Below are positions 3,364-49,164 of a stretch of DNA of 52,312 bases, in pieces. Position 1 is the stretch's first letter; each line of letters starts with the position of its first letter. This DNA comes from Rhodospirillales bacterium (lineage in GTDB: Bacteria > Pseudomonadota > Alphaproteobacteria > BOG-932 > Roseiterribacteraceae): assembly GCA_003165335.1 (NCBI GenBank), contig PLTD01000121.1, forward strand, positions 1 through 52,312, given 5' to 3'. The notes below the pieces were generated by a model. The model saw nothing but the letters and a program-made list of their open reading frames with translations. It did not search any database and had not been told where the DNA came from. Made by a program: the position numbers and the translations under genes.

Positions 3364-4260
3364 TCATCGCCTGGGCAGACCTAATATCTCTGCTGCGGTG
3401 CGTGAATCGGCAACCGGGCGACCCACTTCTCGGGCAATCGCGACAACCTCCTCGATCAATTCGCGATTGGTGGGCGTACGATCTGCAGCATGGTCTTCCA
3501 TGCCGATCCGAACATGACCGCCTTGCTCGATAGCCATGCGCGTCAAACCACTTGCGGTGACATCCCCGCCCGGCACTGCAACTGACCAAGGCAAACCACT
3601 ACCCTCGATCATTTCGACATAGGCTTCGAGTGCCTTACGTGTCGGATTCATGCTGAAAAACTTGAATCCGCCTTTCTTGAAATCCATGAAGTTGTAATCC
3701 CCGGCAAAATAAAATTTCACCATCGCCCCGGACGGCAAGCGGCCGGCGCGATGATAGGCCAAAGTCGTCTGTAGATAGGAAGGGTCGTAAATCGCGATCG
3801 ATGGTCCAAGACGGTGCCGGCCCATGAGGTCGAGCAGATATTCAATCTCCTCAAATGGCACGGAGTAGACCGCGCGAAAGCTTCCCGGCAGACCGTTTTC
3901 GCCTGAATTCGCCATATTGATCGAACCTGGATCGAGCACGCTCATTCGAATCAGACCGGACTGAGCCATCAGCTCGGTGTGTTCCCAACGCTCCTTGAGC
4001 GTACCACCGGCCCCAGCTGTGGGGCAGAGAATCGCATCTGGCTCGGTCGCAATGATTGCTCGATAGGCAGCGAGATATCGATCGGTTGCGGGCTGGCCCA
4101 ATACTGTCAGTTTTTCGATATGACTATGGATGACGCTTGCCCCTGCGGCTATGCACTCGAGTGCGTCGGCAGCAACTTCCTCAGGCGTATAAGGAACATG
4201 CGGGTTGTGCGATCTGGGCGTATTGCCGTTGATTGCGGCTTCGATGATGAGCGGCGTCAT
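3364..4260 (-). CDS. 3-keto-5-aminohexanoate cleavage enzyme family (BKACE)
   Basis: A 298-residue protein of the beta-keto acid cleavage enzyme family. These TIM-barrel enzymes condense a beta-keto acid with acetyl-CoA, releasing acetoacetate and a new CoA ester. Seen here: the N-terminal LIIEAAINGN, the metal-binding HSH motif at residues 46-48, the PTAGAGG segment near 80, and GHVRIGMEDH near 230, which is the conserved family motif. An upstream in-frame ATG at 4356 would add 32 basic residues with no counterpart in the family. I chose 4260 because AGGGGAA lies just before it and the protein then has normal length. It diverges from a class II aldolase family gene. The physiological beta-keto acid is not evident. 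Confidence 0.85.
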   Translation of the reverse strand: MTPLIIEAAINGNTPRSHNPHVPYTPEEVAADALECIAAGASVIHSHIEKLTVLGQPATDRYLAAYRAIIATEPDAILCPTAGAGGTLKERWEHTELMAQSGLIRMSVLDPGSINMANSGENGLPGSFRAVYSVPFEEIEYLLDLMGRHRLGPSIAIYDPSYLQTTLAYHRAGRLPSGAMVKFYFAGDYNFMDFKKGGFKFFSMNPTRKALEAYVEMIEGSGLPWSVAVPGGDVTASGLTRMAIEQGGHVRIGMEDHAADRTPTNRELIEEVVAIAREVGRPVADSRTAAEILGLPRR

Positions 4261-4418
4261 GCTTTCCCCTGTCCGTTTCTTTCGGCCCTTCGCCGTTTTC
4301 CCGATAGTGGCGGGAAACAGCGCGATATGGAAGCGGGACGGTGGAGGATTGTGCACCTATGAAGCGGCACTGGGATGAGATAATTTCGATCGCAAGGGAC
4401 GCGACTTGGGGGGTGAGC

Positions 4419-5240
4419 ATGGCAAAGCTGGCGGCAAGCAGTTTCCTGCACAATTCAGACGACCGGATCAGCCCCGAAGAATGGGATCTGCGGGTCAATC
4501 TCGCGGCATGCTACCGACTGATGGATCGGTTTGGCATGACCGATATGATCTACAATCATATTTCAGCGCGGATTCCCGGTACCGAGCATTTCCTGATCAA
4601 CCCCTATGGCTTGCTCTATACGCAGATTACTGCGTCGACCCTGATCAAAGTGAATCTGAACGGGACGATTATCTCGAAGAGCGACGATGCCTATTCAGTC
4701 AATATGGGGGGCTTTACTATTCACAGCGCTGTCCATGCAGCGAGACCTGATGTGCATTGCGTCATCCACACCCATACGCGTGCGGGCATGGCAGTTTCGG
4801 CGTTGAAATGCGGCTTGCTGCCAATTTCGCAAACCGCCATGCGCTTCAGCGACATCGCATATCATGACTATGAAGGGGTCACGATCGATACGGACGAATG
4901 CGCCAGGCTGTCGGCTCATCTGGGTAACAGGAACGCGATGATATTGCGCAATCACGGGCTAATGGTTTGCGCAGAAAGCATTCCTCAGGCATTCAACGCC
5001 ATCTATTGGCTTGAGCGTGCCTGCCAGATCCAGATTGACGCGCTATCGTGCAATCGCGAGCTGGAGGTTCCTCCTCTGGAGATCATCGAGAAGACCCGCC
5101 AGACCTATATCGACGCCGAGGCAACGCTGGAAAAGAACGCCAGCCCCGGAGCGGCTCAAAAGGCCAAATCCTACGGTTTTCTGGAGTGGCCGGCCCTAAT
5201 TCGAGCGCTCGACCAGACAGATCAATCATACCGCAGTTAA
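4419..5240 (+). CDS. Class II aldolase/adducin family protein
   Basis: A 273-residue member of the class II aldolase/adducin family, whose enzymes use a divalent metal bound by histidines to cleave or form carbon-carbon bonds or to decarboxylate. Visible motifs are NHISARIPG near residue 46, INPYGLLY near 61, the metal-binding HTHTRAGMAVSA near 118-129, and LRNHGLMV near 177-184. Earlier in-frame ATGs exist at 4341 and 4359, but 4419 has a GGGGGGTGAG ribosome site and gives a family-like N-terminus. The gene diverges from the BKACE-family gene, which suggests both serve one small-molecule pathway with keto-acid intermediates (inference). The substrate is unknown. Confidence 0.8.
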   Translation: MAKLAASSFLHNSDDRISPEEWDLRVNLAACYRLMDRFGMTDMIYNHISARIPGTEHFLINPYGLLYTQITASTLIKVNLNGTIISKSDDAYSVNMGGFTIHSAVHAARPDVHCVIHTHTRAGMAVSALKCGLLPISQTAMRFSDIAYHDYEGVTIDTDECARLSAHLGNRNAMILRNHGLMVCAESIPQAFNAIYWLERACQIQIDALSCNRELEVPPLEIIEKTRQTYIDAEATLEKNASPGAAQKAKSYGFLEWPALIRALDQTDQSYRS

Positions 5241-5323
5241 GCCGGAGCACCGAATTGGCGAGGAACTTTTAACTTTTCGCAAAGCGCGATTTTCGATATC
5301 CGGTAGAGGCGAAGTAGCTGAAT

Positions 5324-6502
5324 TCAAAGAACTGCGATTATTTCACTGGCTGAGGCACTGGCGTTGGAACCACTCGGGACCAGCGACGGATAAATCTCGC
5401 GATGCATCGGAATCCTGATCGAAAACGAGGTCCCTTTGTTCGGCCAAGATTCGATGCCTACGTCGCCGCCAATAGCTTCGACATTGTTCCGTACGACATC
5501 CAACCCAACGCCCCGCCCGGATATGCTGGTTACCTCGTCGAGCGTCGAAAAGCCCGGCAGGAGAACGAAGCGGAAAACAATTCGGTCTGACATTGCGAGC
5601 AATTCGGTTTCTGTAGCCAACCGATGTTCCGCCGCTTTGCGGCGAATCATCTCAGCATCGAGCCCTCGCCCATCATCCTCAATCGCGATGACGACAAAAT
5701 CGCCGTCATAGAACGCTCGCAAGCGGATCTGTCCCACCCGTGATTTGCCCGAGGCCTGACGAACCTCGGGCAACTCCAGTCCGTGATCTGCGGCATTGCG
5801 CACAAGGTGAATGAGGGGATCCCTTATCAGATTCAGGACCTGCCGGTTTAGTTCGATATCGGCCCCCTCCTGTACAAGCGCGATCTTCTTTCCAAGCTTA
5901 CTCGCCAGGTCGCGCGTAACGCGTGCAAGCATGGACCAAATGTCGCCTATCCGCTGTCCGCTCGTCCCCGTGGACGGGAATCCTTCATGCATTTGGACGA
6001 GAGGATCCCGACCCATAGCGGACGAAGTGACACCAGCCACCGGTGGCAAAGATGGATCCGGCGGTCCTGACGTCGTCGCGAAGAGCGCCTGCAACGAAAT
6101 CGGATCAATCGATGCGTTCTGGGAAAGAGCTGGCGAGTGCAGAGCGCACAACTCGGCCAACAAGCCCCCGTCACTATCGCCTTCGTCACCAGATGACTCG
6201 ATAGCCTCGACAATTGATCGCATCGCGGCGACGGACCGTCTCAATGTCGCGATTATATATGGAGTCGGCGGCAGCGCGCGCGAACGCACGAGGCTGAGCA
6301 TTCCCTCAGTCGCATGGCATATCTGTCCCATTTTGGACAATCCGAGAAATCCGCAGGTTCCTTTGATATTGTGAAACATGCGAAATGCGTTAGAGATCAG
6401 CGCGGCATCTACTGGCCTTTCCTCTAGTTTTCCGAGATCTGCATCGAGGGAGTTCAGAGCCTGAACGACCTCAATCAGGAAATCTGGGACGCATTCATCC
6501 AT
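5324..6502 (-). CDS. cheA: Minimal CheA-like histidine kinase lacking the CheW-like domain
   Basis: A 392-residue CheA-type kinase; complete CheA proteins are usually 600-750 residues. The N-terminal Hpt domain has the phospho-accepting His44 in FHNIKG. After a Pro/Ser-rich linker (about 125-180) comes a short helical piece, then a CheA-type ATPase domain with N box HLVRNAADHG (232-241), G1 DDGRG (276-280), G2 GRGVGLD (329-335) and GTSFSIRIP (357-365). The protein ends there. There is no P5 (CheW-like) receptor-coupling domain, no P2, and most of the P3 dimerisation hairpin is missing. It diverges from cheY, its likely phosphorylation target. No receptors, cheW, cheR or cheB are in the window. 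How it is controlled without P5 is unclear. Confidence 0.8.
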   Translation of the reverse strand: MDECVPDFLIEVVQALNSLDADLGKLEERPVDAALISNAFRMFHNIKGTCGFLGLSKMGQICHATEGMLSLVRSRALPPTPYIIATLRRSVAAMRSIVEAIESSGDEGDSDGGLLAELCALHSPALSQNASIDPISLQALFATTSGPPDPSLPPVAGVTSSAMGRDPLVQMHEGFPSTGTSGQRIGDIWSMLARVTRDLASKLGKKIALVQEGADIELNRQVLNLIRDPLIHLVRNAADHGLELPEVRQASGKSRVGQIRLRAFYDGDFVVIAIEDDGRGLDAEMIRRKAAEHRLATETELLAMSDRIVFRFVLLPGFSTLDEVTSISGRGVGLDVVRNNVEAIGGDVGIESWPNKGTSFSIRIPMHREIYPSLVPSGSNASASASEIIAVL

Positions 6503-6629
6503 TTCAACCCTACGAACTCATCATTTCATGGCACGGGGCCAGGCTATATTTTTTTATTGCGAAAATCTACAATAATGCTAAATACCTCTAGCCGCTTTTC
6601 CATTTGGCTGGCCTACGTATGGAGAAACC

Positions 6630-6992
6630 ATGAGAATCCTAGTCGTTGACGACTTCCCAAGCATGCGCCGAATTTTGCGAAATCTCCTTAATAAAATTGG
6701 AATTTCGGAAGTCGAAAAAGCCGAAAACGGCGCCGAGGCTTACGAGAAGCTCAGAAATTCAAAGTTCGATTTGGTTATTGCCGATTGGAACATGGAGCCT
6801 GTCACGGGGCTCGAGCTGATCCAAAGGGTTCGCAACGATGCGAGGGTCGCAGGTACCCCCTTCATCATGGTCACCGCCGAGAGCAAAACCGAGAATGTGA
6901 TCGAGGCCAAAAAAGCGGGCGTGAACAATTATATTGTAAAACCGTTCACAGCGGACGTACTGAAGGCCAAAATCGCAGCCGTCATGGGCTAA
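6630..6992 (+). CDS. cheY: CheY-type single-domain response regulator
   Basis: A 120-residue receiver domain with no output domain. The acidic pocket is Asp7/Asp8, the phosphoacceptor is Asp52, the switch Thr is Thr82 and the conserved Lys is Lys104 in IVKPF. Phosphorylated CheY normally binds FliM and FliN at the motor switch to change rotation or speed. A GGAGAAACC ribosome site precedes the ATG. It heads a plus-strand group with fliK (10 bases downstream) and flgD, and diverges from the minimal CheA gene. That layout suggests CheA-CheY form a partner pair made together with structural genes. Confidence 0.92.
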   Translation: MRILVVDDFPSMRRILRNLLNKIGISEVEKAENGAEAYEKLRNSKFDLVIADWNMEPVTGLELIQRVRNDARVAGTPFIMVTAESKTENVIEAKKAGVNNYIVKPFTADVLKAKIAAVMG

Positions 6993-7002
6993 GGTGGCGC
7001 GC

Positions 7003-8355
7003 ATGGCAATGTCCGGGGCGGCGGCCTTTGAGGTAAATGGCCTCAATAATGCGCCCAATCAAAAGCCGGCGTCCTCTCCACCGGCGGAGAGCTTCGCTGC
7101 TTTCCTGGACTCTGCACCAGGCCGATTGGCGCAGAAAGATGCCCCATCACCGGGCACCGTTACATCACTTCAAGGTCAGGGGAATTCGACCGCGCTGACA
7201 AAAAGCCTGACTAATCGCACCGCACTGCCAGGACAACAGCCAGCCCGCAAGCCGGCCAATGGCAATCCGAGCGCCGAAAGTCAAACAGCCGCCGCTCAGA
7301 CCTCGCCGCCATCGACGATGACCCTGGTGCAGCCGCTGTCCGCCGTCGCGAGTTCCACCACCCCACCGACTGCATCGTCCCAGGACGCCGAGGCGGGTAA
7401 AAAATTATGCGAAACTCCAGAATATGATCTCGGTACAGAAAACGCAGCGACGATAGCGTCTGGAACGCAGGTTCCTGGAATGGTGGCTCCTGGAATGGTG
7501 CCTCCTGGGACTACGGTTCCTGTGACGGCGGCTCCAAGCGCACCGTCGCCTATTGCGATATCGCCCCAAATCGCCGCGCCGCTACAGGCCGCTGCATCCC
7601 CTAGCAAGGCCGCATTGGGATCGGAGCAACGGGTCGCCGGACGCAAAGCCGTCCCCTCAGACGGGTCTTCAACCGCAGCCGATAGCGATCAGGACGGGAA
7701 CTCGGCGAACTTGCCAATCGTGCAGTTAGCCGATTTGAGCGACCAACCGGCAACGGCCGTAGCATTATCGTCAGCGTCAAGTCTCACTGCCGCCAAGACC
7801 AGCGCCATCGACCCGGGCATAAGCAATACCGTCCCAGGGGATACTTCCCTGTCCAATTTGATAAGCGTAGCCGGGAGCAACCCGCCGGCACAACCGGCCG
7901 GGATCGAGGCAGTCGCCGCATCAACCGTTCCCCTCGCCCCGGCACCGCTGAACTCGGCGGCGACGGCCGGAGCGAACCGAGCTGTGGCCTTGCGAATCAG
8001 CCGCGCTATTGCTTCAGGTGAAGATACTCTGACAATCGATTTGCATCCCGCTGAGTTGGGCCATGTTGCCGTAAAGCTGGCGTTTCATGGCAATAGTGTC
8101 GATGTACAGATGGTTGTCGGCCGCCAGGAAACATTTCAGGCGTTCAACCAAGACCGTGCGGCGCTGGAACAACAGTTCAGCCAAGCCGGGATCAATCTCG
8201 GCTCCGGTGGCTTGGACTTACGCTACAGCCAAACTCCTACGACGGTCCCCGAACAGACCGGCTTTTCAGGCTCACTTCAATCGGATGACGGGGCGAGCGA
8301 TCCGCAAGCCCGCACCATTTTCCTAGGCGATAACCTGGTCAATATCATTGCTTGA
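7003..8355 (+). CDS. fliK: Flagellar hook-length control protein FliK
   Basis: A 450-residue protein with a long low-complexity Ala/Pro/Ser/Thr N-terminal region and a folded C-terminal domain. The C-terminal part has the FliK core LTIDLHPAELGHVAVKL (near residues 345-361) followed by a helix-rich stretch ending at a QAGINLG segment. FliK measures hook length and triggers the FlhB substrate switch from hook to filament proteins. I chose ATG 7003 because AAGG of the preceding cheY stop region lies 8 bases upstream; a GTG at 6994 and an ATG at 7009 are alternatives. Residues near 157-170 contain tandem Pro-Gly-Met-Val units encoded by a 15-base repeat. FlgD follows 21 bases downstream. Confidence 0.88.
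   Translation: MAMSGAAAFEVNGLNNAPNQKPASSPPAESFAAFLDSAPGRLAQKDAPSPGTVTSLQGQGNSTALTKSLTNRTALPGQQPARKPANGNPSAESQTAAAQTSPPSTMTLVQPLSAVASSTTPPTASSQDAEAGKKLCETPEYDLGTENAATIASGTQVPGMVAPGMVPPGTTVPVTAAPSAPSPIAISPQIAAPLQAAASPSKAALGSEQRVAGRKAVPSDGSSTAADSDQDGNSANLPIVQLADLSDQPATAVALSSASSLTAAKTSAIDPGISNTVPGDTSLSNLISVAGSNPPAQPAGIEAVAASTVPLAPAPLNSAATAGANRAVALRISRAIASGEDTLTIDLHPAELGHVAVKLAFHGNSVDVQMVVGRQETFQAFNQDRAALEQQFSQAGINLGSGGLDLRYSQTPTTVPEQTGFSGSLQSDDGASDPQARTIFLGDNLVNIIA
7474..7503 (+). repeat. 15-base tandem repeat inside fliK
   Basis: Two adjacent copies of a 15-base unit beginning CCTGGAATGGTG, with a third decayed partial copy after them. They encode repeated Pro-Gly-Met-Val units in the disordered N-terminal region of FliK, where length variation would be tolerated. 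Confidence 0.75.
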
Positions 8356-8376: not shown

Positions 8377-9069
8377 ATGAGTAGCGTTTCAGCGGTATCA
8401 CAGTCCAGCAGTGCGGCGTCAGTTACGCCGGCCACGACCCAGATCGGAGCGTTGGCAGGTCAGACACAGGAGAATCAATTCCTGACCCTCCTGACGACGG
8501 AGCTACAAAATCAGGATCCGACACAGCCGACGGATCCGACACAATTCGTCACTCAGCTCGCCCAGTTCTCGACGGTTGAGCAATTGACCCAGAGCAACAC
8601 AACCTTGACCTCAATATCGAGCTCCCTCAACGGCATGGCCTTGGGACAGTATTCCGGATTGATCAATAATACAGTTACAGCGACACCATCGACCCTAACC
8701 GTACCAACTTCGGGATCGGTTTCGGTACCGCTGACCTACAACATCACGAACGCGGCCCTCACGAACCCCTATATTGCAGTAACAAACGCATCAGGAAATC
8801 TGGTTGCCTCCCTGCCCGTCAGCGGCACGACCGGTTCTGTTACGTTCGATGGCACCGATGGGCAAGGCAACACCTTACCGGCTGGTCAGTATAGCGTGGC
8901 GTTGGTAGGAACCCCCGCCGGCCAAACATCGGGATCGACAAGCTCCGCTGGAACTTTGACCACGACCGACGTGGTGGCCAGCGTTACGCAAGGCGCAACC
9001 GGCAGTTGGAATCTGCAACTGCAAAACGGACAGACCGTTGCCGCAAACGGCGTAACGTCAGCAAATTAA
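8377..9069 (+). CDS. flgD: Flagellar hook cap / hook assembly protein FlgD
   Basis: A 230-residue FlgD, the scaffold that caps the growing hook and is needed for FlgE polymerisation. The conserved N-terminal region is present: NQFLTLLTTELQNQDPTQP (about residues 33-51), then DPTQFVTQLAQFSTVEQ (52-68), which is the family hallmark. The C-terminal half is a Thr/Ser-rich beta domain with a DGTDGQGNTLPAGQYSV segment typical of the FlgD Ig-like domain. A GGAAGG ribosome site lies before the ATG. It is the last gene of the cheY-fliK-flgD group and faces the FliL paralogue gene across a strong hairpin. Confidence 0.93.
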   Translation: MSSVSAVSQSSSAASVTPATTQIGALAGQTQENQFLTLLTTELQNQDPTQPTDPTQFVTQLAQFSTVEQLTQSNTTLTSISSSLNGMALGQYSGLINNTVTATPSTLTVPTSGSVSVPLTYNITNAALTNPYIAVTNASGNLVASLPVSGTTGSVTFDGTDGQGNTLPAGQYSVALVGTPAGQTSGSTSSAGTLTTTDVVASVTQGATGSWNLQLQNGQTVAANGVTSAN

Positions 9070-12321: not shown

Positions 12322-14610
12322 TCAGCCTCCGTTTGCCGTTGGTAACCGACCGGCAGGTGGTAACAGCGCTTCAATTTGGCTTGCTCGGCGAAGAGAATCG
12401 CGGATTGCGGGCACCGGTGGCAGCGGGGTGCTCGCCTGCTCGGGAAGCGCGCCGAGGACATGCCCGGCAAGGCCCGAGAATCCTGCCAAATCCTGGGCGG
12501 GTTGTTTGCCGCAAAGGGCTAGCGCTAAGGCATACCGGTCGGCGGCTTCAGCATGGACATCTTTTTCCAGCGAAGCGTTGCGCAGCACATCTGCATAAGC
12601 GTCCGCTGCGCCGGGCCACTCCTTCGCCTCATAAAGCAACGAGGCGCGCCATAATTCCACCGAAAGGTCCGTGATTCCGTCGAGCTGGTGGGCGGCCTCG
12701 ACCGTCTTCCCAAGCCGAACCAGGGCCTCTGCCGCGACATGGCGCGTCCCATCGTCGGTCGCGATGTTCTTCAGCAGCGATAGAGCCACCTCAGCATCGC
12801 CTGCACGGGCCTCGGCCGTAGCATGTAGCAACGCAGCGCGTGCCGATTGATCGGTTACCTGGCGCATAACATCCAAGGCTGCCTCGGGCATCATCTGATC
12901 CAGCATGAGCCGGGCAGCGCCCAGGCGGATATCATCGCCTTTTTCGCCCGGCGTCGCATAACCGCTATAACGCCAATATATCAGCAGACGCTGCTCTGGA
13001 GCCGGTAGACCGGGAGCGTCCTTATCGACAAAAATCCGACGCAGAACCCGTGCGGCCAAAGTCGCCCCATGGCTGTCAGTCTGCTGCAGGGTGCTTCCCA
13101 CGGAACTGTCGTTGGCGACGCGCAGGGCGCCAACGTAATCGCCATGACGCAAGCGATCCTCCGAGAGCGCAGACGCAGCGCTTTGACCGAACGTGGTATC
13201 CCGGTATACGCGCGCTGCATCGGCAAGAATCGATTCGGCTTGTCGCCCTTGGTCGTCTTCCTGCGCAGACCGCAATTCCGCCAAACGCACCTGAGCCTTC
13301 AGGCCGGTAATCCCTATGTCGCGGGCAGCGCGCTCAAGAAAACTGGCCTCGTCAACGGGATCTTTCCTGGCGCGGGCGATCCGAGCCTGGAGCATGTAGC
13401 GGCCGGACGCATCGACCGGACCACCTATATCCGAATTTCTTACGGCTCCGGCCATGGCGTGCAATACGGACAAATCGTCGGGTGCAACCTCAGCGATCCG
13501 CAGGGAAAACAGGGTTGAAAGCGGCTCGGGTATGAATTGAAGGGCATATCCGGCTGCCTCGCTATCTCGACGAATTGCCTCCTGGTCACCTGCAGCCGCC
13601 GCAGATAAAGCGCGCCACAGCGGAATATCGGCGCGATCGCAGTCCGCGGAATTACTGAGCAGAACAGACGTCGATTCGATCGGCTGCGCCTTGAGCAATC
13701 GAGCGAGATCCGCGTCACGCGACAGGCGTCGCTGGTCTTCGGCCGAAACCCCATCAGGCTTGACTTCCTGGGCTATGACCAGGGCTTCGGCACCCAGACC
13801 GTTACTGAGATAAAATTCCGCCAGCGCGGCCATCGCTGACGCAGACTCCTCGGATTGCGCAGCCAGAGCTCTGAGAGATTGGAGTCTTTGGGGAAACGGC
13901 CCGTCCCCTTTCCAGCCTTCCATTGAAAACTCGGGCGGACAGGCCGGCCGGGACTGAGCCACGGCAGGCGGAGCAGCAATACCTGCCGGAGAGACAGATT
14001 GCGGTAGTACCTTGGCGACTTTCCCCTTCGGGGTGGTCGGTGCTTGTTTTGCATCGAGCATAGTGATTTTCCGAATCAGCAATTCACGCATGCTGCTCAG
14101 ATCTGGCGACGCTTTTGCAGCGGCTGCAGACGCCGCTGTCGGGACGGACGGGACGGACGGAACAACCGGGGTAGCCGCAGAAGCCGCAGAAGCCGGCGAC
14201 TTGTCGATCAGATCTAACCGGACACTGTGGGGCAGGCGTTTTTGATGAATCGCGCAATTGGCTGCGAGATGAACGATTGCGATGCTGGCATCGCCTTCCA
14301 TGCGCAACTCGATGCCGGTGACCTCACGTAGTTTTGGAAGATTTGCGAATTGGTAGGCTGCCTTGCCATGCGCTCGCACTTCAATCCCACCATTGGTCTC
14401 CTTGAAGACTAGGTCGGGCACGTTTTCTGTCAGGAAATTCAGGCGCGCGCCGTTCGCATTTTGCACGCCCGTCACGGGAACGGCTGTCGGTTGGGCAGAG
14501 GCCGCGGGGTATCTTGTCGCCGATCCCTCGGACGCTGCACTGTGCGCAATCGGAGCAAGCCCAGCCGCCAGTGGGATCGCAGATAATACCCAGAATGCAT
14601 TATTTCGCAT
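12322..14610 (-). CDS. Large secreted helical-repeat protein, possible stator-associated factor
   Basis: A 762-residue protein starting with a signal peptide (about 1-25). Residues about 48-135 form a beta-rich domain with an AMIN-like look. They are followed by an Ala/Pro/Ser/Val linker (140-215) and then about 500 residues of Ala-rich paired helices typical of TPR-like repeats, with repeated motifs such as AALAEFYLSNG and ADAYADVLRNA. I do not recognise a named family. It lies only 2 bases after motA and 3 bases before flgF, so it is made with a stator subunit. In rhizobia the periplasmic MotC and its chaperone MotE assist the stator, and a MotE-like protein is encoded at 28992. A MotC-like role is therefore an inference from context, not homology. 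Confidence 0.6.
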   Translation of the reverse strand: MRNNAFWVLSAIPLAAGLAPIAHSAASEGSATRYPAASAQPTAVPVTGVQNANGARLNFLTENVPDLVFKETNGGIEVRAHGKAAYQFANLPKLREVTGIELRMEGDASIAIVHLAANCAIHQKRLPHSVRLDLIDKSPASAASAATPVVPSVPSVPTAASAAAAKASPDLSSMRELLIRKITMLDAKQAPTTPKGKVAKVLPQSVSPAGIAAPPAVAQSRPACPPEFSMEGWKGDGPFPQRLQSLRALAAQSEESASAMAALAEFYLSNGLGAEALVIAQEVKPDGVSAEDQRRLSRDADLARLLKAQPIESTSVLLSNSADCDRADIPLWRALSAAAAGDQEAIRRDSEAAGYALQFIPEPLSTLFSLRIAEVAPDDLSVLHAMAGAVRNSDIGGPVDASGRYMLQARIARARKDPVDEASFLERAARDIGITGLKAQVRLAELRSAQEDDQGRQAESILADAARVYRDTTFGQSAASALSEDRLRHGDYVGALRVANDSSVGSTLQQTDSHGATLAARVLRRIFVDKDAPGLPAPEQRLLIYWRYSGYATPGEKGDDIRLGAARLMLDQMMPEAALDVMRQVTDQSARAALLHATAEARAGDAEVALSLLKNIATDDGTRHVAAEALVRLGKTVEAAHQLDGITDLSVELWRASLLYEAKEWPGAADAYADVLRNASLEKDVHAEAADRYALALALCGKQPAQDLAGFSGLAGHVLGALPEQASTPLPPVPAIRDSLRRASQIEALLPPAGRLPTANGG

Positions 14611-14612
14611 TC

Positions 14613-15497
14613 CTAGTCCGCCTTTGTGCGAACGGATTTGCCGGTTTCGGCAACCACTTCGTCGAGCTCGGCGAAACTTGGCTGAAAACGGGTCGGAACC
14701 GACCGACGGCCGACTTCAACCGCGAGTTGTGGGCCAAGCCCTTCAAGATGGGCCATGATCACCTGTCTGACCATACCCAGCATCAGCCCCTCCTCTTCGA
14801 TAACGCCCTTTATGCGGCCTGCTATCGGACCGATGATGCCATAGGCGAGCAAGACGCCGAGGAACGTTCCGACAAGGGCGGATCCGATCATGGCACCAAG
14901 AACTTCTGGCGCTTCGCTGATTGCTCCCATTGCTTTGATGACACCCAAGACAGCGGCCACAATCCCTAGAGCGGGTAGCGCATCCGCGACGGTCGCTAAC
15001 GCCTTTGCGGCCAGCAACTCCTCGTGGTGGTGCTTCTCGATTTCGGTTTCCATCATTTCACCGACTTTGTGCGGATCGGTGAAGTTCATGGTGATGCTCC
15101 GAAAAACGTCAGTTATGAACCCTACGAGGTGATGATCGGCGCAGATGCGCGGGTAACCGGAGAACACGACTGATGTTTCGGGGTTCTCAATGTGCTTTTC
15201 GAGAGCCATGTTGCCCTCCTGCCGGGCAATTCGAGCCAGGAGAAACAGCAGGCAAAGCGCGTCGATATAGTCGGCCTTTCGCCACCCCGGACCGGATATC
15301 ACCTTCTTGAATTTGCCGATCAGCTTAGTGACCGTCGCGAATTCATTACTGATCAGCATGGTCATCACACCGGAGCCGAGGATGATGAGCAACTCTGGCC
15401 CCAGGGCGTGCATAATTGCACCGAACTTACCGCCCTCAAGCATGTAGCCGGCGCCGATCGCCCCAAATACGCCAATCAAGCCGATAACTTGTAACAT
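14613..15497 (-). CDS. motA: Flagellar stator protein MotA
   Basis: A 294-residue MotA with four membrane helices: two near the N-terminus (about 1-20 and 34-52) and two late (about 180-200 and 210-232), flanking a large cytoplasmic domain. The cytoplasmic loop has the usual charged torque-generating region (RIARQEGNMALEKHIENP near 70-87). MotA with MotB forms the proton- or sodium-driven stator. Starts at 15545 (TTG) and 15533 (ATG) would add 12-16 residues; I chose 15497 because MLQVIGLIGV matches the family N-terminus, though no clear ribosome site supports any choice. It heads the operon running to the FliL paralogue. motB is about 6 kb away in another operon. Confidence 0.9.
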   Translation of the reverse strand: MLQVIGLIGVFGAIGAGYMLEGGKFGAIMHALGPELLIILGSGVMTMLISNEFATVTKLIGKFKKVISGPGWRKADYIDALCLLFLLARIARQEGNMALEKHIENPETSVVFSGYPRICADHHLVGFITDVFRSITMNFTDPHKVGEMMETEIEKHHHEELLAAKALATVADALPALGIVAAVLGVIKAMGAISEAPEVLGAMIGSALVGTFLGVLLAYGIIGPIAGRIKGVIEEEGLMLGMVRQVIMAHLEGLGPQLAVEVGRRSVPTRFQPSFAELDEVVAETGKSVRTKAD

Positions 15498-15554
15498 TTT
15501 ATGCCGCACATGTTCTAGCACAGACCACCGCATTTCGCGGATCAAGTTTTCGTA

Positions 15555-15564
15555 GCATTTCGCA
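15555..15564 (-). promoter_or_regulatory. Recurrent ATTTCGCA element upstream of motA
   Basis: GCATTTCGCA on the plus strand (TGCGAAATGC reading toward motA) lies in the motA / transglycosylase divergent region. The same core occurs before motB, flgB, fliI and at flgA. Function unknown; a regulator site is inferred from recurrence. Confidence 0.3.
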
Positions 15565-15615
15565 GATAATTCGGCTAGTAGTATTTTTGCATGAAATCGA
15601 GAAAGGAGAATCCTT

Positions 15616-21653: not shown

Positions 21654-22547
21654 TCAGTTAGAGGTTGGGGCCGGGACGTTGCGATCGACCGGCAAACGCG
21701 CCTGAGGATCGACATCGTTTCGCAGAATGGTGATCGCGATCCGTCGGTTTCGCGGGTCTAGAGGTGACTGGGGCAGGAGAGGATCGCTGGCCGCCCGGCC
21801 TTCGACCTGGATGATACGGCCCGGCGCTAGTCCGGTAGCCTCCAGAGTTCGCCTGACGGCATTGGCTCGGTCGGCCGAAAGCTCCCAGTTGGAGTAGGAA
21901 CCACGCTGAAGCGCATGGCCATCGGTATGACCCGATAGAATGATACTGTTTTGCACAGTTCCCAAAACCTGCGCGACGACGTCGAGGATCGCCTTCAGCC
22001 GCGGTAGCGGCTCTGTTCCACCGGGTGAGAACATGGGCTCGCCGTCCCGATCGAAAATTTGGATCCGCATCCCGTCTTCGGTCATTGCGACATCGATATT
22101 CGATGCTTCGGTTTTAAGCTCACCGGAGGTCATGATTTGTTCGAAATTGGCCTTTAGCGCCTCAAAACGTTGGCGCTCGGTCCGGTCGTGCGACTGAGTG
22201 GATGCTTCGCCTGATTGCGTGTCTCTGCGCTGCTCCATCTTACCGTTCTTCATCGCCGGTTGTCCGCGTTCGGGCTTGGGGTCGGCCCCTTCCATCACGG
22301 ACTTTCCACCATTGAGCACGCCATTGCCCGCCGGCATGTCGAACATCGATGTGCTCAAGAAATATTTCGCAATCACCTGGCGATCAGTCGATGTGGTCGA
22401 TGACAGCAGCCACATGATGAGAAAGAAGGCCATCATCGCGGTGACGAAATCGGCGTAAGCGACCTTCCACTGCCCCCCATGCGCATCATCGTGCGCGACT
22501 ATCCGCTTCACGATGATGGGACGCTTCTGTTCGTTGCTAACACTCAT
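21654..22547 (-). CDS. motB: Flagellar stator protein MotB
   Basis: A 297-residue MotB. The single membrane helix is at about residues 29-48 (WKVAYADFVTAMMAFFLIMW) with the essential ion-binding Asp at residue 33. A charged, Gln/Lys-rich linker follows, then an OmpA-like peptidoglycan-binding domain with LSGHTDG near 206 and NWELSADRANAVRR near 221-234. MotB anchors MotA around the rotor. It heads the operon motB-flgE-flgK-flgL-flgI, an unusual pairing of stator and hook genes, and is separated from motA by about 6 kb. A 185-base gap with two ATTTCGCA elements precedes it. Confidence 0.95.
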   Translation of the reverse strand: MSVSNEQKRPIIVKRIVAHDDAHGGQWKVAYADFVTAMMAFFLIMWLLSSTTSTDRQVIAKYFLSTSMFDMPAGNGVLNGGKSVMEGADPKPERGQPAMKNGKMEQRRDTQSGEASTQSHDRTERQRFEALKANFEQIMTSGELKTEASNIDVAMTEDGMRIQIFDRDGEPMFSPGGTEPLPRLKAILDVVAQVLGTVQNSIILSGHTDGHALQRGSYSNWELSADRANAVRRTLEATGLAPGRIIQVEGRAASDPLLPQSPLDPRNRRIAITILRNDVDPQARLPVDRNVPAPTSN

Positions 22548-22732: not shown

Positions 22733-23806
22733 TTAGAATTCGGCATCGCTTGTTTCTTCCTCTTCCTGCTCCATCAGGACCAGGCGCCCCTCACCGATCA
22801 AACGTTTGGCCGTATCGATAATCTCAGATTGTGCGGCATCGATTGTTTTGCGACGCGGCGGCACTTGCGTCTCCATCTCTTCGATAAGCATTTTCTGCGC
22901 GCGTTCCGACATCTGGGACATGAAGAGCGCCTTAATTTCGTCGCTTGCGCTGACTAATGCGATGGGCAATCGCTCGGCCGGAACATCGGCGATCAGAAGC
23001 CCAAACGTGGCCGGTTCAATGCGTCTCAGATCTTCAAAAGTGAACATGATGCGGCGGATGCGTGCTGCGGCCTGCGGTTCCTTGTCCTCCAGAGCCGACA
23101 GGATCCTATCCACCAGTTCCTGGTCCGAACGGTTGAGCATTTCCGCCACGATCGAGGTGCTGTCACGTTCATAGGCGCGACCCAGTACTGCGGTAAACTC
23201 GCGTTTCAGGGCCTCTTCTATATCCATCAGGACAGGCCTTTGAACGCTTGTCATCCGAACCATGCGCAAGGAAATGTCGGCTGCATTCTTAGGCGGCAGT
23301 AGCCTGATTACCCGCGCGGCATGCGCCGCCGGCAGACGTGCCAATATCAATGCTGCAGTTTGCGGATATTCGTTGCGCAGATAGCCGGCCAAGGTTTGCG
23401 GTTGGATATGGGATAGTTTTTCCCAGATGTTCTTGCCATCCGGCCCCTTCGCCTCGTCCATGATTTCCGCGACCTTATCCGGCGGCAGGAAACGGCTCAG
23501 CATTTTCTCGGCGGCATCGAAGCCGCCAACAATGCTGCAACTATGGCCAATTTGAGACTGAAACTCTTCGATAACCTCTTGGATGGTTTCCATATCGGTC
23601 CGCCCCATCCTCGCCATGGCTCCGCCCAGACGGCGCACCTCATCTTCGCTCAAACTGGAGAGCAAACGTTTCGAGCGTTCCTCATCCAAAGCCATGACGA
23701 TAATTGCTGCCCTTTCGCAATATTCCGACTGCGAGGCTGTGGCCGCCTGAGCTGCCTGTGGGCGTATCGAGGAAAACCGGTCGTGCTTTGCCTCTACGAG
23801 TGTCAT
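22733..23806 (-). CDS. fliG: Flagellar motor switch protein FliG
   Basis: A 357-residue FliG, the rotor protein that contacts MotA. The middle domain carries EKLSHIQPQTLAGYLRNEYPQT-type sequence with the EHPQT-like motif as EYPQT (about 146-150). The C-terminal domain holds MFTFEDLRRIEP (about 258-269) and the charged torque helix region before SERAQKMLIEEME. The start ATG overlaps the fliP stop by 4 bases. It is the last gene of fliF-fliH-fliN-fliP-fliG; fliG normally follows fliF directly. The acidic C-terminal tail (EQEEEETSDAEF) is an extension beyond the usual end. Confidence 0.95.
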   Translation of the reverse strand: MTLVEAKHDRFSSIRPQAAQAATASQSEYCERAAIIVMALDEERSKRLLSSLSEDEVRRLGGAMARMGRTDMETIQEVIEEFQSQIGHSCSIVGGFDAAEKMLSRFLPPDKVAEIMDEAKGPDGKNIWEKLSHIQPQTLAGYLRNEYPQTAALILARLPAAHAARVIRLLPPKNAADISLRMVRMTSVQRPVLMDIEEALKREFTAVLGRAYERDSTSIVAEMLNRSDQELVDRILSALEDKEPQAAARIRRIMFTFEDLRRIEPATFGLLIADVPAERLPIALVSASDEIKALFMSQMSERAQKMLIEEMETQVPPRRKTIDAAQSEIIDTAKRLIGEGRLVLMEQEEEETSDAEF

Positions 23807-24670: not shown

Positions 24671-24946
24671 TCAAATAAGTCCGGTGTTGGCGATTTCGGA
24701 CAGCGATATCGCCAGCCTACCCTCGTCGGTTAATTGCACCTCACCGCGCGCGACGAGACGCTTGTTGACATATATGTCGACGAGCTCACCCACCTTCTTG
24801 TCCACCTCGACCACCGATCCGCGGCTCAGAGCATAAAGCTTACCCAGCTGAATGGTCTTTTCTCCCAGAACGACGGTGAGGGTCACCGGGATATCCATCA
24901 TCGACGCAAGCCGATCCTCGGTAACTGTTGAAATCAAATCAGACAT
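24671..24946 (-). CDS. fliN: Flagellar motor switch protein FliN
   Basis: A 91-residue FliN consisting of little more than the SpoA (C-ring) domain: MDIPVTLTVVLGEKTIQLGKLYALSRGSVVEVDK-type sequence, then VDIYVNKRLVARGEV and the C-terminal SLSEI. FliN forms the base of the C ring with FliM and binds FliH during export. The short length lacks the N-terminal extension of enterobacterial FliN. The ATG overlaps the fliH stop by one base (TAATG). It lies between fliH and fliP. Confidence 0.93.
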   Translation of the reverse strand: MSDLISTVTEDRLASMMDIPVTLTVVLGEKTIQLGKLYALSRGSVVEVDKKVGELVDIYVNKRLVARGEVQLTDEGRLAISLSEIANTGLI

Positions 24947-27416: not shown

Positions 27417-27926
27417 ATGGCATCGCTGAAGGCCGCAAAGCAGGAATCGGATGAGGGTGCGTCTAAGAAAAAGAAACGCAGCCCTCTACTATTGATCGCG
27501 GCGATTCCCGTCGTTCTTATAGCGGCCGGGGCGGCGGCCTATTTCTTCGTGCCGGGGATCTCGGAAAAAGCCAATGGATTGACTGCCCATAAGGAAGCTC
27601 CAGTCGAACTCCCCTCACCAGGTCCAGTTTTCGCAGAACTTCCAGAAATGTCGGTAACGCTCCCGAACGGCGGTCAAGCTCGGCAGCTGCGAATTCGTAT
27701 TTCCCTGGAGCTCATGCAAACGACACCTCAGCCTACGCCCGCGGCCGTTCTCACGCCGAAGGTGTACGATGCACTTCTCATCTATCTGCGCACACTGACA
27801 GATAGCGAGGTCGACAACTCGCTCGCAATCGATCGCATCCGCGGGGACCTTTTTCGGCGCCTGACTCTCGTGCTCGGCCCGAACGTCGTTCGCGACGTAT
27901 TGATCACAAGCCTAGTCGTTGCGTGA
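27417..27926 (+). CDS. fliL: Flagellar basal-body protein FliL
   Basis: A 169-residue FliL with a Lys-rich cytoplasmic start (ASKKKKRS, 15-22), one membrane helix (about 24-45) and a periplasmic domain ending in RDVLITSLVVA, the conserved FliL tail. FliL surrounds and supports the stator units. An AAGGCAG ribosome site is present before the ATG. It starts the plus-strand group fliL-fliM-motE-like and diverges from fliF. A secreted paralogue without the anchor is encoded at 9113. Confidence 0.93.
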   Translation: MASLKAAKQESDEGASKKKKRSPLLLIAAIPVVLIAAGAAAYFFVPGISEKANGLTAHKEAPVELPSPGPVFAELPEMSVTLPNGGQARQLRIRISLELMQTTPQPTPAAVLTPKVYDALLIYLRTLTDSEVDNSLAIDRIRGDLFRRLTLVLGPNVVRDVLITSLVVA

Positions 27927-27930
27927 CGCG

Positions 27931-28959
27931 ATGAGCGAAACAACACAAATCATCAACGAAGATGACGCATCCACCCCTTGGAGTGAAGGGGAGCCGTCGC
28001 TGGAGCAAAGCGACATAGACAATCTTTTCGGTGACTCGTCGCAGGACGGAAGTCACAGACGACGTGGTTTCGAGGCGCTGATCACAAACGTCGTGTCCGG
28101 CATCGATCGCATGCCGATGTTAAATATCATGATTGATCGCCTTGCCCAATCGATGACGGTGAGCATGCGCGGCTTCACCGGTGACAATACCGATGTCAGC
28201 ATCGATCATATCCAAGCATGCCGCCTGAAAGACTTTCTCGACTCCGTGTCGTTGCCCGCGATGATCGCTGTCCTGAGGGTCGAGCCCTGGGAGGGCTATT
28301 GTCTAGCCGCACTGGATGCTCGGCTGATCACCTCCGCAATGGATGTTCTGCTCGGCGGACGTCGCAATAGAGGCTCCCCGATCGAAGGTCGTCCGTACAC
28401 GGCAATCGAGCGCGCATTCGTCGAACGATTGGTTCAAAATGTCATTGCCGGCGATTTGAAACAGGCTTTCGACATCATCGGCGATGTCGATTTCGTACTC
28501 GAGCGGCTGGAAACCACACCATCCTATGCTGCCGTAACGAAGGCTTCGGGTGCCGCAATCATGTTCCGCGCCGAAATTTCGATCGATCACCGCAGTGGCC
28601 ATATCGATTTCCTCATCCCCTACTCGACGTTCGACCCGGTTCGCGAACAGCTCATTGAAGAATATGTCGGAAAGAAAAATGGCGGGGATCCGGCATGGCG
28701 GACCCATCTGACAACGGTACTGCCCCACGCAGAAGTCGAATTGCGCGCCGTCATCGAGCAGCGATCGATTTCCAGTGCCGAAGTCATGAAGTGGAAAGTC
28801 GGATCCCGTCTTTTGCTGGAGCGGCGACAAGACGAACCGATCGATGTGTTTTGCAACGAGTTACTCGTGTTGCGGGCTGCAATAGCTGACAAGGAAGGAA
28901 GGATTGCACTTCGCGTGAGCGAACGCCGGTTGGCTCAGGACTGGCCGTTCGATCCATGA
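27931..28959 (+). CDS. fliM: Flagellar motor switch protein FliM
   Basis: A 342-residue FliM with three parts: an N-terminal acidic region with LEQSDIDNLFGD (about 24-35), a relative of the CheY-binding LSQxEIDALL motif; a CheC-like middle domain with LLGGRRNRGSPIEGRPYTAIERAF (about 139-162, quoted in part); and a C-terminal SpoA domain containing MKWKVGSRLLLE. Position 27931 (ATG, MSETTQ) is chosen over the in-frame TTG at 27919. It begins 4 bases after the fliL stop. The CheY-binding-type peptide supports a working switch fed by the CheY encoded at 6630. Confidence 0.93.
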   Translation: MSETTQIINEDDASTPWSEGEPSLEQSDIDNLFGDSSQDGSHRRRGFEALITNVVSGIDRMPMLNIMIDRLAQSMTVSMRGFTGDNTDVSIDHIQACRLKDFLDSVSLPAMIAVLRVEPWEGYCLAALDARLITSAMDVLLGGRRNRGSPIEGRPYTAIERAFVERLVQNVIAGDLKQAFDIIGDVDFVLERLETTPSYAAVTKASGAAIMFRAEISIDHRSGHIDFLIPYSTFDPVREQLIEEYVGKKNGGDPAWRTHLTTVLPHAEVELRAVIEQRSISSAEVMKWKVGSRLLLERRQDEPIDVFCNELLVLRAAIADKEGRIALRVSERRLAQDWPFDP

Positions 28960-31464: not shown

Positions 31465-33564
31465 CTATATCTGCTCGACGGTGCGCAGGCGACTGGTCGC
31501 ATGTATTTCAGCATGCGAGATTATTGCGATCGTCGGATTGACCCGTTCAATCAAAGCACGAACAAAGGGCCGAGCATCAGCGCTCGTTAAAACAGCCGGC
31601 CAGACTCCGCGAGCCGACGCGGCGGCAAGCTTAGTGCGAACTGCCTGTACAAAGTCCTGAGTGCGCGAAGGTGGCAGAATAAACGCACGCTGATCTCCGT
31701 CGGTGATGATCGCTTCGTTGATCTCGCTCTCCCACTGCGGGGATAAGGGCATTACGGCAATAAAACCGTCTCCGCCGGTTAGGGATTTGCATATCTGCAT
31801 CGCTAGGCGGGCGCGCACATGTTCGGTCATCATCCGCACGTTGCGGGTAAGGCCAGCGGCCTCGTGAATCGCTTCCAGAACCAGCGGCAGATGGCGGATT
31901 GAGACCCGTTCGGCGAGCAGACCGGCAAGAATTTTCTGCACGGTGCTCATAGGCACCAAACCAGGGACAAGATCCTGCACAAGCTTCTGGTGTTCCTGAC
32001 CCAAACCGGTCAACAGCTTCTGCGTTGCGGCGTAGGACATAAGTTGATTCATGTTGGCTTTTGCTGTCTCGGACAGATGCGTCGTGAGCACCGTTTCGAC
32101 GTCCACGACGGTCAGTCCCAATGCAACCGCTTCTTGACGCTGGCTTAAGTCGATCCAGCGAGCGGGTATCTGAAAGGATGGCTCCTTCGTATCTAGCCCA
32201 GCGAGGCCGATTTCTCGCCCGTCTGGCGAAAATGCCAACAATTTGTTCGGCATCATTGTCTCATGAGCCACTTCGACACCATGTATCTGCAGCGAGTAAT
32301 CGCCCGATGCCAGGTCCATATTGTCTTTGATTCGCACCGCTGGGAGCAAAAACCCATAGTCGAGCGCTATTGAACGTCGCAGCTTGCGTATCTTTTCGGT
32401 AAGCCCACCGTTGGGACCGGATGCAAGTGGCACTAACCCCATACCAAGTTCGACACGAATATCGTCGACCCGCATCAATTCGCCGATCGGTTCTTCTTTC
32501 GGGCCGCCTACATTTTCTTCGCTGCGTGCTGCGGCAGCCTCGGCTAGCTTTTTGCCTAACGCGGTACGCCGTACAAGAAATGCGGCCCCGGCAGTTGCCG
32601 CCGATAAAAAGGCAAACGGTAGAAAGGGCATACCCGGAAGGATAGCGAACAGGCCAGCGAGACCCGCGGCCAGAAACAATGGTTTTGAATGCCCACCTAA
32701 CTGGCCGATGAACGCCCGGTCGGTAGAGCCGCGTGTTGACCCCTTCGATACCAGCAAGCCGGCGCCAAGACTGACGATAAGCGCCGGGACCTGACTGACG
32801 ATGCCGTCGCCGATCGTAAGCGTCGTATAGAATGTTGCTGCCTGACCAACACCAAGCCCGTGGCGCAACGTGCCGATGACGATGCCGCCTACCGCGTTTA
32901 CGAGAGTTATGATGATCGCAGCAATTGCATCGCCTCGAACGAACTTCGACGCACCATCCATCGCCCCATAAAAGGAGCTTTCGTCCTCAAGCTCCTTTCT
33001 TCTGCGACGGGCTTCGACGTCGGTGATGGAGCCTGCGGACAGTTCTGCGTCGATCGCCATTTGTTTTCCCGGCATCGCATCCAGCGAGAATCTCGCCGCA
33101 ACTTCCGCAATTCGGCCCGCGCCCTTGGTGATCACCATGAAATTAATGATGATCAAAATGGCGAAAACGACGACGCCAATGACGAAATCTCCACCGACGA
33201 CGAATGCGGCAAAGCCGTTGATGACCGTACCGGCCGCACCAAGCCCTTTATGTCCACCCGACAGGATGAGACGCGTCGTGGCAAGATTGAGCGCCAGTCT
33301 GAGGAGCGTTGCGACCAGCAAAACCGTCGGGAAACTCGAGAAATCGAGAGGTTTTTCGATCCAGATTGCGACCATCAATACCAGGACGGAGAGCGTGATC
33401 GAGGTCGAAAGACCGATATCGACCAGAACGGTCGGCATCGGCAACACCAGCACTGAAACCAGAGCAACGATGCCGACCGCAAAGAACAGGTCCTGATGAC
33501 GAGACCAACTGGCGAGAACGTCTAGGAGACGATTGGTGGGGGTTACCTGCGTCGTGTCCGACAT
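31465..33564 (-). CDS. flhA: Flagellar export protein FlhA
   Basis: A 699-residue FlhA, the main export-gate platform. The N-terminal half has eight hydrophobic segments. The conserved cytoplasmic loop between them includes AIDAELSAGSITDVEARRRR and DGASKFVRGDAIA (about 165-215), the FHIPEP-family signature. The large C-terminal cytoplasmic domain (from about 350) would dock chaperone-substrate complexes and FliJ. It lies 4 bases from both fliQ and fliR, indicating a tight operon. Confidence 0.97.
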   Translation of the reverse strand: MSDTTQVTPTNRLLDVLASWSRHQDLFFAVGIVALVSVLVLPMPTVLVDIGLSTSITLSVLVLMVAIWIEKPLDFSSFPTVLLVATLLRLALNLATTRLILSGGHKGLGAAGTVINGFAAFVVGGDFVIGVVVFAILIIINFMVITKGAGRIAEVAARFSLDAMPGKQMAIDAELSAGSITDVEARRRRKELEDESSFYGAMDGASKFVRGDAIAAIIITLVNAVGGIVIGTLRHGLGVGQAATFYTTLTIGDGIVSQVPALIVSLGAGLLVSKGSTRGSTDRAFIGQLGGHSKPLFLAAGLAGLFAILPGMPFLPFAFLSAATAGAAFLVRRTALGKKLAEAAAARSEENVGGPKEEPIGELMRVDDIRVELGMGLVPLASGPNGGLTEKIRKLRRSIALDYGFLLPAVRIKDNMDLASGDYSLQIHGVEVAHETMMPNKLLAFSPDGREIGLAGLDTKEPSFQIPARWIDLSQRQEAVALGLTVVDVETVLTTHLSETAKANMNQLMSYAATQKLLTGLGQEHQKLVQDLVPGLVPMSTVQKILAGLLAERVSIRHLPLVLEAIHEAAGLTRNVRMMTEHVRARLAMQICKSLTGGDGFIAVMPLSPQWESEINEAIITDGDQRAFILPPSRTQDFVQAVRTKLAAASARGVWPAVLTSADARPFVRALIERVNPTIAIISHAEIHATSRLRTVEQI

Positions 33565-37784: not shown

Positions 37785-38252
37785 TCAGGACTGGGAAATA
37801 GCTTCGTGCCCGGCCTCATGCGTCTTGAAGGACACGGGCGCCGATCTTCGCCATTCGTGAGGCGCGACATTGAGCAGGTTCGCTTCGTACGCAATCAAAG
37901 GATGTAATCCGGCGAGTGCCTTATAGTAATCTCCAGACTCTACCAGTTCATTGACCGTTTTGAGAATTTCCAGATTTTCCGGACGAACAAAAGCGTCACG
38001 AAGCTGAGTGAAGAGTTCGTTATAGGTGCGAACGAGATTGGGAGGCGGCGGCGGTTGCATCAGCATCGTCTGTATTATGAAATACAGACGCCGGGTTGGA
38101 GTATCGGCATCGGCCTCCCTGAGAACATCTTTTTCGCGCATCACATGCGTGAAATTGCGGATGATCAGGCTTGCCCGGTATTCGCCGTTTACCAGGACTG
38201 CGCCATTGACGATCAGACTTTCGTGGGCCGCAAGTTTGAGTTTGAGTGGCAT
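37785..38252 (-). CDS. flbT: Flagellin translation regulator FlbT
   Basis: A 155-residue FlbT. The family start MPLKLKLAAHESLIVNGAVL is followed by NFTHVMREKDVLREADADTPTRRLYFIIQTM (about 32-62, quoted in part), the most conserved stretch. In Caulobacter FlbT binds the flagellin mRNA leader and promotes its decay until hook completion, opposed by FlaF. A frame reading through from 38747 exists but overlaps flaF; the ATG at 38252 overlaps the flaF stop by one base. Adjacent to flaF and the flagellin gene, as expected. Confidence 0.93.
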   Translation of the reverse strand: MPLKLKLAAHESLIVNGAVLVNGEYRASLIIRNFTHVMREKDVLREADADTPTRRLYFIIQTMLMQPPPPPNLVRTYNELFTQLRDAFVRPENLEILKTVNELVESGDYYKALAGLHPLIAYEANLLNVAPHEWRRSAPVSFKTHEAGHEAISQS

Positions 38253-38656: not shown

Positions 38657-38696
38657 CGAACGGGCTTTCTTCCTCGTTGCGCAATAAATTCTCGCC

Positions 38697-38712
38697 GGCC
38701 TGTTCTATGCCG
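38697..38712 (-). promoter_or_regulatory. Weak sigma-54-like site before flaF
   Basis: CGGCATA-GAAC-AGGCC has the GG-N10-GC spacing but poor match at -12. It lies between the flagellin terminator and flaF, with the expected start about 30 bases before the ATG. Chance occurrence cannot be excluded. Confidence 0.3.
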
Positions 38713-38718
38713 GAGTAA

Positions 38719-38747
38719 ATGGGGCCGGTCTGGTCGACCGGCCCCAT
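38719..38747 (-). terminator. Terminator after flagellin gene
   Basis: A 12-bp stem, ATGGGGCCGGTC (38719-38730) with GACCGGCCCCAT (38736-38747), and a 5-base loop lie 7 bases past the flagellin stop. A short TTTACT follows on the transcribed strand. It should end the abundant flagellin message before flaF. Confidence 0.8.
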
Positions 38748-49118: not shown

Positions 49119-49145
49119 GCAAGAAACATTTGTCAACTTTATCAA

Positions 49146-49161: not shown

Positions 49162-49164
49162 CCC

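Follow-up and report, generated by a model that had tools for sequence, protein, structure and literature searches.

A flagellar gene cluster in the window analyzed here (52,312 nucleotides, bases 1 to 52312 of the 94,762-bp contig C263, in a genome, G000, of 5.19 Mb in 265 contigs) contains a gene for a 392-residue protein, here called mini-CheA (positions 5324 to 6502, minus strand), that is made up of an Hpt domain, the P3-P4 linker helix and a P4 domain, with no P2, P3 hairpin or P5. The reading that we favor, if only moderately, is that mini-CheA is a reduced alphaproteobacterial CheA that lost the parts used in the receptor array when the receptors were lost and kept the phosphate path to the motor. 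The sensory end of the pathway appears to have been lost, and the motor-control end was probably kept.

Only two Pfam models exceeded their cut-offs when mini-CheA was searched, namely, Hpt at residues 7 to 96 (44.4 bits; cut-off, 24.6) and HATPase_c at residues 229 to 367 (59.2 bits; cut-off, 26.4), and no P2, H-kinase_dim or CheW match was obtained. The Hpt domain, or P1 (positions 6215 to 6484, minus strand), carries H44, K47, G48 and E66. Upon alignment to full-length relatives, residues 1 to 110 matched P1, residues 121 to 180 stood in place of the linker and the entire P3 core (VSELVLTRNQLL ... VMKTRMQ in the relatives), and from about residue 181 mini-CheA rejoined the P3-P4 linker (QRIGDIWSMLARVTRDLASKLGKK versus QPIGNAWSKLPRIVRDLSHELKKK in L040) and continued to align through P4. 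By alignment and structure prediction, residues 105 to 185 (positions 5948 to 6190, minus strand) form a linker where P2 and P3 would be, and they are followed by the end of the P3-P4 linker and P4, with all nucleotide-binding boxes intact (residues 186 to 367; positions 5402 to 5947, minus strand). The last conserved part is a strand ending in SFSIRIP, after which about 25 divergent residues bring the protein to its end at the P4/P5 border; this disordered tail (residues 368 to 392 and the stop codon; positions 5324 to 5401, minus strand) lies at the expected start of P5. Mini-CheA keeps 47 of the 61 P4 columns that are at least 90% conserved in the relatives, compared to 2 of 13 such columns after P4. 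In an AlphaFold2 model built with 37 sequences, pLDDT exceeded 90 over most of Hpt (a helical bundle, residues 5 to 104) and P4 and was below 50 at residues 126 to 179 and 369 to 392, such that the two domains were joined by a disordered linker and the P3 helical hairpin was absent. When this model was used in a Foldseek search, the best PDB matches were CheA P4 structures of T. maritima, in which the isolated P4 folds and binds nucleotide. In a separate comparison, the PDB match to T. maritima CheA-289 began at residue 69 of the chain, past its P3. An earlier note on this DNA had described a kinase with Hpt and ATPase domains that lacks P5, P2 and most of P3. Both Pfam and the alignment agree with that description.

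According to a survey of 13,673 CheA sequences, P1, P3, P4 and P5 are defined as universal, and P2 is absent from more than half of CheAs (PMC10782961). Judged by the core domains of that survey, mini-CheA has a P1 with a phosphorylatable histidine and a CheA-type P4, and it has no P3 hairpin, no P5 and no coupling to an MCP/CheW array. Mini-CheA is outside the published core definition of CheA, yet it is descended from CheA and its function may be CheA-like. Assignment as a ChpT histidine phosphotransferase was ruled out, as there was no match to the HPTransfase C-terminal model (PF10090). A split or frameshifted full-length CheA, which the earlier note had named as a finding that would overturn its proposal, was also ruled out; hidden Markov models of the relatives' P5 (cut to 150 residues) and P3 matched nothing on the 94.8-kb contig. 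In a tblastn search of the contig for CheA remnants, only chance-level matches were obtained, including two very weak ones (E values of 1.8 and 4.3) between positions 3300 and 5400, and the open reading frame (ORF) adjoining mini-CheA ends 83 bp away on the opposite strand.

The descent of mini-CheA was examined with its P4 domain. In a tree of 63 P4 rows, from which L014, L021 and L028 were left out because they lack the motif by which P4 was excised, mini-CheA was placed within a 38-row clade of full-length F5-like CheAs (support, 94/98); the class name is that of PMC10782961, with membership assigned here by architecture and clade and not by the models of that paper. The mini-CheA branch was long, at 1.78 compared to a median end branch of 0.23, and in a second tree the corresponding values were 4.95 and 0.28. 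The position of P4 on a long branch in the alphaproteobacterial F5-like clade indicated that mini-CheA arose from a full-length CheA by reduction. Each of the 25 active-site residues examined (H44, K47, G48, E66 and those of the N, G1, F, G2 and G3 boxes) was the same as in the F5 proteins. Retention was then compared over 77 Hpt and P4 sites with at least 97% conservation in a set of 30 F5 rows, with L098, L030 and L034 left out; the motif boxes were picked after the alignment had been viewed, from definitions of the kinase boxes. On this basis, mini-CheA keeps 24 of 25 motif-box sites versus 34 of 52 sites elsewhere in Hpt and P4 (one-sided Fisher P value = 0.002). The bias was weaker for the CheA of G083 (22 of 25 versus 32 of 52; P value = 0.015) and not significant for that of G523 (23 of 25 versus 42 of 52; P value = 0.18), these being two other receptor-less genomes, described below. 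Full-length F5 proteins, each left out in turn, retained a median of 100% of the conserved sites, and in the Hpt domain mini-CheA keeps no more than 20 of the 30 sites with high conservation. The counts within and outside the motif boxes indicated that drift in mini-CheA has largely spared the active sites. In a tree of the three receptor-less CheAs, all fell on the same side of a weak branch (65/83), with long branches throughout and odd composition in two of the three, so that their reduction may be either shared or independent.

The gene for CheY (120 residues; positions 6630 to 6992, plus strand) diverges from the mini-CheA gene, and the start codons are separated by an intergenic region of 127 bp (positions 6503 to 6629). 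The protein matched Response_reg at 105 bits, and its best NCBIfam match was the CheY equivalog PRK10610, at 139.9 bits, under the model cut-off of 189. In the alignment, the acid pair, the phosphoacceptor aspartate, the threonine, the lysine and the switch tyrosine are all present; D7, D8, D52, T82, Y101 and K104 are the equivalents of D12, D13, D57, T87, Y106 and K109. Relatives of this CheY were found at 1e-20 in 14 of 31 genomes, with identities of 38 to 64% over the 14 matches outside the window's own genome, and in several genomes the alphaproteobacterial relative has a CheZ-like ORF alongside. Directly 3' of cheY lies fliK (positions 6994 to 8355, plus strand), followed by flgD (positions 8377 to 9069, plus strand), and the three genes probably form one operon. 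FliM (positions 27919 to 28959, plus strand) carries a CheY-binding-like peptide, LEQSDIDNLF (residues 28 to 37; positions 28000 to 28029), which is the sole match to L.Q.[DE]ID.L[LF] in six-frame translation of the contig. The arrangement of a kinase divergent from a complete CheY and the FliM peptide, both proposed in the earlier note, were thus borne out.

Other motor and switch genes of the window encode MotA (positions 14613 to 15545), MotB (positions 21654 to 22547), FliG (positions 22733 to 23806) and FliN (positions 24671 to 24946), all on the minus strand. Pfam confirmed FliF, FliG, FliM, FliN, FliL, MotA, MotB, a FliI-type ATPase, FlgD, FliK, FlbT and flagellin, and further flagellar genes, including that for FlhA, were assigned by eye from the translations. 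FlhA (positions 31465 to 33564) is 54 to 55% identical to the nearest of 385 genomes of the class; judging by this protein, the flagellar cluster is divergent or horizontally acquired. The FlbT model covers only residues 168 to 292 of a 320-residue ORF (positions 37785 to 38747), the start of which is probably further downstream, and a 579-residue ORF (positions 40755 to 42494) adjoins the cluster.

The assembled genome (95.57% complete; contamination, 4.5) contained no CheW domain and no MCP signaling domain in searches for which the control matched in 7 of 14 genomes. No CheZ was found in it either; the CheZ control gave matches in no more than 2 of 14 genomes, although matches were obtained in 6 of the 9 genomes given. 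Mini-CheA itself was the one CheA-like match in the genome. Among the window ORFs read, no MCP, CheW, CheR or CheB gene was recognized, as the earlier note had claimed for the neighborhood; for CheB, this absence does not extend to the genome, which has five genes with a CheB-methylesterase domain on contigs other than C263, including two within open frames of 1,490 and 1,461 residues. Two genomes of the same family, G003 and G004, have CheW, MCPs and a full CheA.

Other CheAs of this kind were sought by searching with P0001 in 76 relatives and in two overlapping samples of the class (385 and 388 genomes). No ortholog with the mini-CheA architecture was found in either sample, and a scan of the contigs of close relatives with the single protein gave only three distant loci. 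A tblastn search of plasmids returned 451 records, in six of which a single locus spanned 80% of the query; the best matches were from Rhodovastum and Azospirillum. These matches, together with CtrA-, FlbT- and ChpT-type genes in the relatives, point to Alphaproteobacteria as the class. At an E value of 1e-50 or less, P0001 matched in 138 of the 385 genomes, and a single-stretch alignment from Hpt to P4 was obtained only for mini-CheA, G295 and G083. The other rows at this threshold had frames of at least 660 residues, except for that of G072 (529 residues, cut by a contig end). The 565-residue frame of G295 has a normal CheW domain, meaning that P5 is kept, and that genome has one MCP match. 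At 1e-63 or less, 7 of the 388 genomes matched, and G523 was added. The CheA of G523 (509 residues; L127 positions 1087 to 2616, and also L128 positions 14080 to 15609) has Hpt, HATPase_c and a weak REC domain and no CheW match. It is encoded on a flagellar contig (genes named by eye) beside CheY and CheR; upstream lies a ChpT-like gene whose product matches HPTransfase (PF10090). The AlphaFold model of this protein has a two-helix hairpin (residues 139 to 162 and 167 to 187) at the position of P3, with modest confidence, which suggests that the G523 CheA lost P5 but kept P3. In the CheA of G083 (L035; 643 residues), P3 was undetected, REC is present, and the CheW stretch scored 23.1 bits, just below the cut-off of 23.5; CheR lies beside it with no CheY there, and the flagellar genes are on a separate contig. 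As a side observation, the P4 match in G144 (C1, positions 382144 to 384944) is split over two frames about 1.4 kb apart in an insertion-like manner. The earlier note would have been undercut if all homologues had P5. That is nearly the case, in that almost all homologues seen do have it, with the exceptions of G523, where it is missing, and G083, where it is degraded.

MCP matches were absent from 33 of 75 genomes, including G000, G523 and G083. Within the family of G523, G131 and G233 have 17 and 20 MCP matches, respectively, and G316 has neither an MCP nor a CheA match. Loss or degradation of P5 seems to track receptor loss in three cases (G000, G523 and G083), which is a pattern and not a test of the link, as G523 and G083 were chosen for their CheA. 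Among 63 flagellated genomes without an F5-type CheA, 29 were also without MCPs; P0001 was unmatched at 1e-5 in 28 of these 29, and G299, the remaining one, had an HATPase match only. This indicated that the loss of receptors usually ends in total loss of CheA.

In classical CheA, P4 phosphorylates P1, and the phosphate then passes from P1 to CheY. We propose that the lineage lost its chemoreceptors, CheW and CheZ, and that P5, and here also P2 and the P3 dimerization hairpin, would have been lost alongside, with the path from H44 of Hpt to D52 of CheY and on to FliM left intact. P4 would bind ATP and phosphorylate H44 on its own flexibly tethered Hpt or on that of a second copy, at a low rate independent of receptors; CheY would then accept the phosphoryl group and bind FliM. 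The level of phosphorylated CheY might be set by the amount of kinase, by ATP or temperature, or by some cytoplasmic partner, as well as by the dephosphorylation of CheY itself, and the outcome would be a motor bias that is either basal or tuned slowly, with no sensing of gradients. The domain content and descent of mini-CheA, its intact active sites and the missing receptors are read from the sequence; from these we infer that it may work as a kinase without P3, may dimerize, may pass phosphate to CheY and may affect the motor.

P1 of Cereibacter sphaeroides CheA3/CheA4 is phosphorylated in trans by the P4 of the other protein (PMC3591291), a soluble CheA-CheY pair was argued from nuclear magnetic resonance to be itself responsive to temperature (PMC5705603), and cytoplasmic CheA-binding proteins such as CsoR have been reported (PMC11978298); a receptor-free pair could by such means still set the level of phosphorylated CheY. 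CheA is reported to be a homodimer formed via P3 (PMC10653900), and the activity of mini-CheA is uncertain because this normal dimer interface is missing. The proposal of a receptor-independent CheA-CheY pair gains from the lack of any assembled receptor or CheW, the unbroken gene, the retained catalytic residues and the parallel in G523, but its description as a type not described before was overstated. As a tentative and rather doubtful generalization, some receptor-less flagellated alphaproteobacteria may keep a soluble, possibly nondimeric CheA with eroded P5 and P3, in which Hpt, P4, CheY and FliM set motor bias from the cytoplasmic state. If so, the 392-residue mini-CheA would represent the extreme of reduction among the CheA-derived kinases of the series G523, G083 and G000. 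A working CheA-derived kinase without P3 and P5 would mean that the catalytic module is separable from the receptor array, and it could then be tested whether Hpt phosphorylation requires P3 dimerization and what motor control is worth retaining without any receptor. Proteins of this type would be small natural subjects for kinase biochemistry, and a CheA without MCPs would serve as a genome marker of receptor-free motor control.

The main rival to this reading is that chemotaxis was lost and that mini-CheA, and perhaps CheY, is a decaying relic of little or no effect. We consider this unlikely, albeit worth serious thought: the long branch of mini-CheA fits decay as well, a third of the highly conserved Hpt sites are changed, most of the receptor-less flagellated genomes examined have no CheA left, and an ortholog is absent from both class samples. 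However, the frame is intact, active-site residues were kept to a greater extent than other conserved sites, CheY and the FliM peptide are intact as well, and a comparable architecture occurs in G523 together with CheY and CheR. A small probability attaches to the view that mini-CheA is a hub or sink in a phosphorelay, with Hpt phosphorylated by other kinases or by back-transfer from phosphorylated CheY, with P4 otherwise employed, and with other two-component signals passed to the motor. Free Hpt domains are known to function as relays, and the window does encode candidate partners. These are a protoglobin-PAS-HisKA-HATPase kinase resembling a globin-coupled oxygen sensor, near the flagellar cluster (positions 44054 to 45724, minus strand), a second PAS-HisKA-HATPase kinase (positions 46773 to 48971), and several receiver proteins, including a winged-helix response regulator (positions 42941 to 43741), another response regulator ORF (positions 46053 to 46757) and single-receiver ORFs (positions 49117 to 49581 and 49728 to 50183). 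The two sensor kinases are, however, about 38 kb from mini-CheA with nothing tying them to its Hpt, and every ATP-binding box is kept in P4, which would be unnecessary in a pure relay.

There is a slim chance that the missing receptors reflect an artefact of assembly or binning, either because C263 is foreign or because the unassembled remainder of the genome holds the MCP and CheW genes. The fragmentation, incompleteness and contamination of the assembly are in keeping with this, as are the GC content of the contig (0.54 to 0.57 versus about 0.58 to 0.62 on the larger contig pieces compared) and the divergence of the flagellar cluster from same-family genomes, given that FlhA is 52% identical to that of G003 and has no match at 1e-180 in the congener G002. 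Chance loss of all MCP genes is nevertheless unlikely, since such genes are usually scattered over the genome, and the tetranucleotide composition of the window correlated at 0.89 to 0.92 with contigs of its own genome and at 0.75 to 0.81 with pieces of other genomes, a measure that is not decisive, as two G083 pieces reached 0.89 to 0.90 with contigs of the window's genome. The composition of the window is in reasonable agreement with that of the other contigs, leaving some probability of contamination. It is very improbable that mini-CheA and CheY drive some output besides the flagellar switch. CheA homologues with such roles are known, for example, R. centenum Che3 in cysts (PMC3868531), but cheY immediately precedes fliK inside the flagellar cluster, the switch tyrosine of CheY is kept, and FliM has its CheY-binding-like peptide.

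No P5-less CheA, and no sensor-less form consisting only of Hpt and P4 in a receptor-less flagellated genome, was found in the open-access literature searched, which lacks most subscription papers. The claim that such a system is not described was nonetheless too strong, as P5-less CheA-type kinases exist in Burkholderia/Caballeronia and cytoplasmic modulation of CheA-CheY has already been published. The Burkholderia/Caballeronia kinase (L097) resembles mini-CheA in that P3 and P5 are undetected and a CheY-like ORF is near, and it differs in having its own sensor modules, only 30% identity, and CheX and an MCP fragment alongside; on the Caballeronia plasmid it is a 4HB_MCP-HAMP-PAS-Hpt-HATPase protein (positions 3645 to 6044) adjoined by MCP-domain, CheX and receiver ORFs. 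The split CheA3 and CheA4 of C. sphaeroides are likewise CheA variants with domains missing (PMC3591291); they sit in a receptor cluster, and both halves keep P5, which rules out this type for mini-CheA, a single chain carrying both P1 and P4. The alphaproteobacterial F5-class CheA, with the order Hpt-linker-P3-P4-CheW-CheW-REC, shares with mini-CheA the P4 clade and the Hpt and ATP-binding motifs, whereas mini-CheA has no P2, P3 hairpin or REC and neither of the two CheW domains, and CheW and MCPs are absent from its genome. The G083 CheA is similar to mini-CheA in its undetected P3, its weak P5 and its MCP-less flagellated genome, but it retains REC and a CheW-like stretch. The G523 CheA (Hpt-P3-P4-REC) shares with mini-CheA the lack of P5, an MCP-less genome, a flagellar cluster and a CheY alongside, and it differs in its P3-like helical hairpin, weak REC and neighboring CheR.
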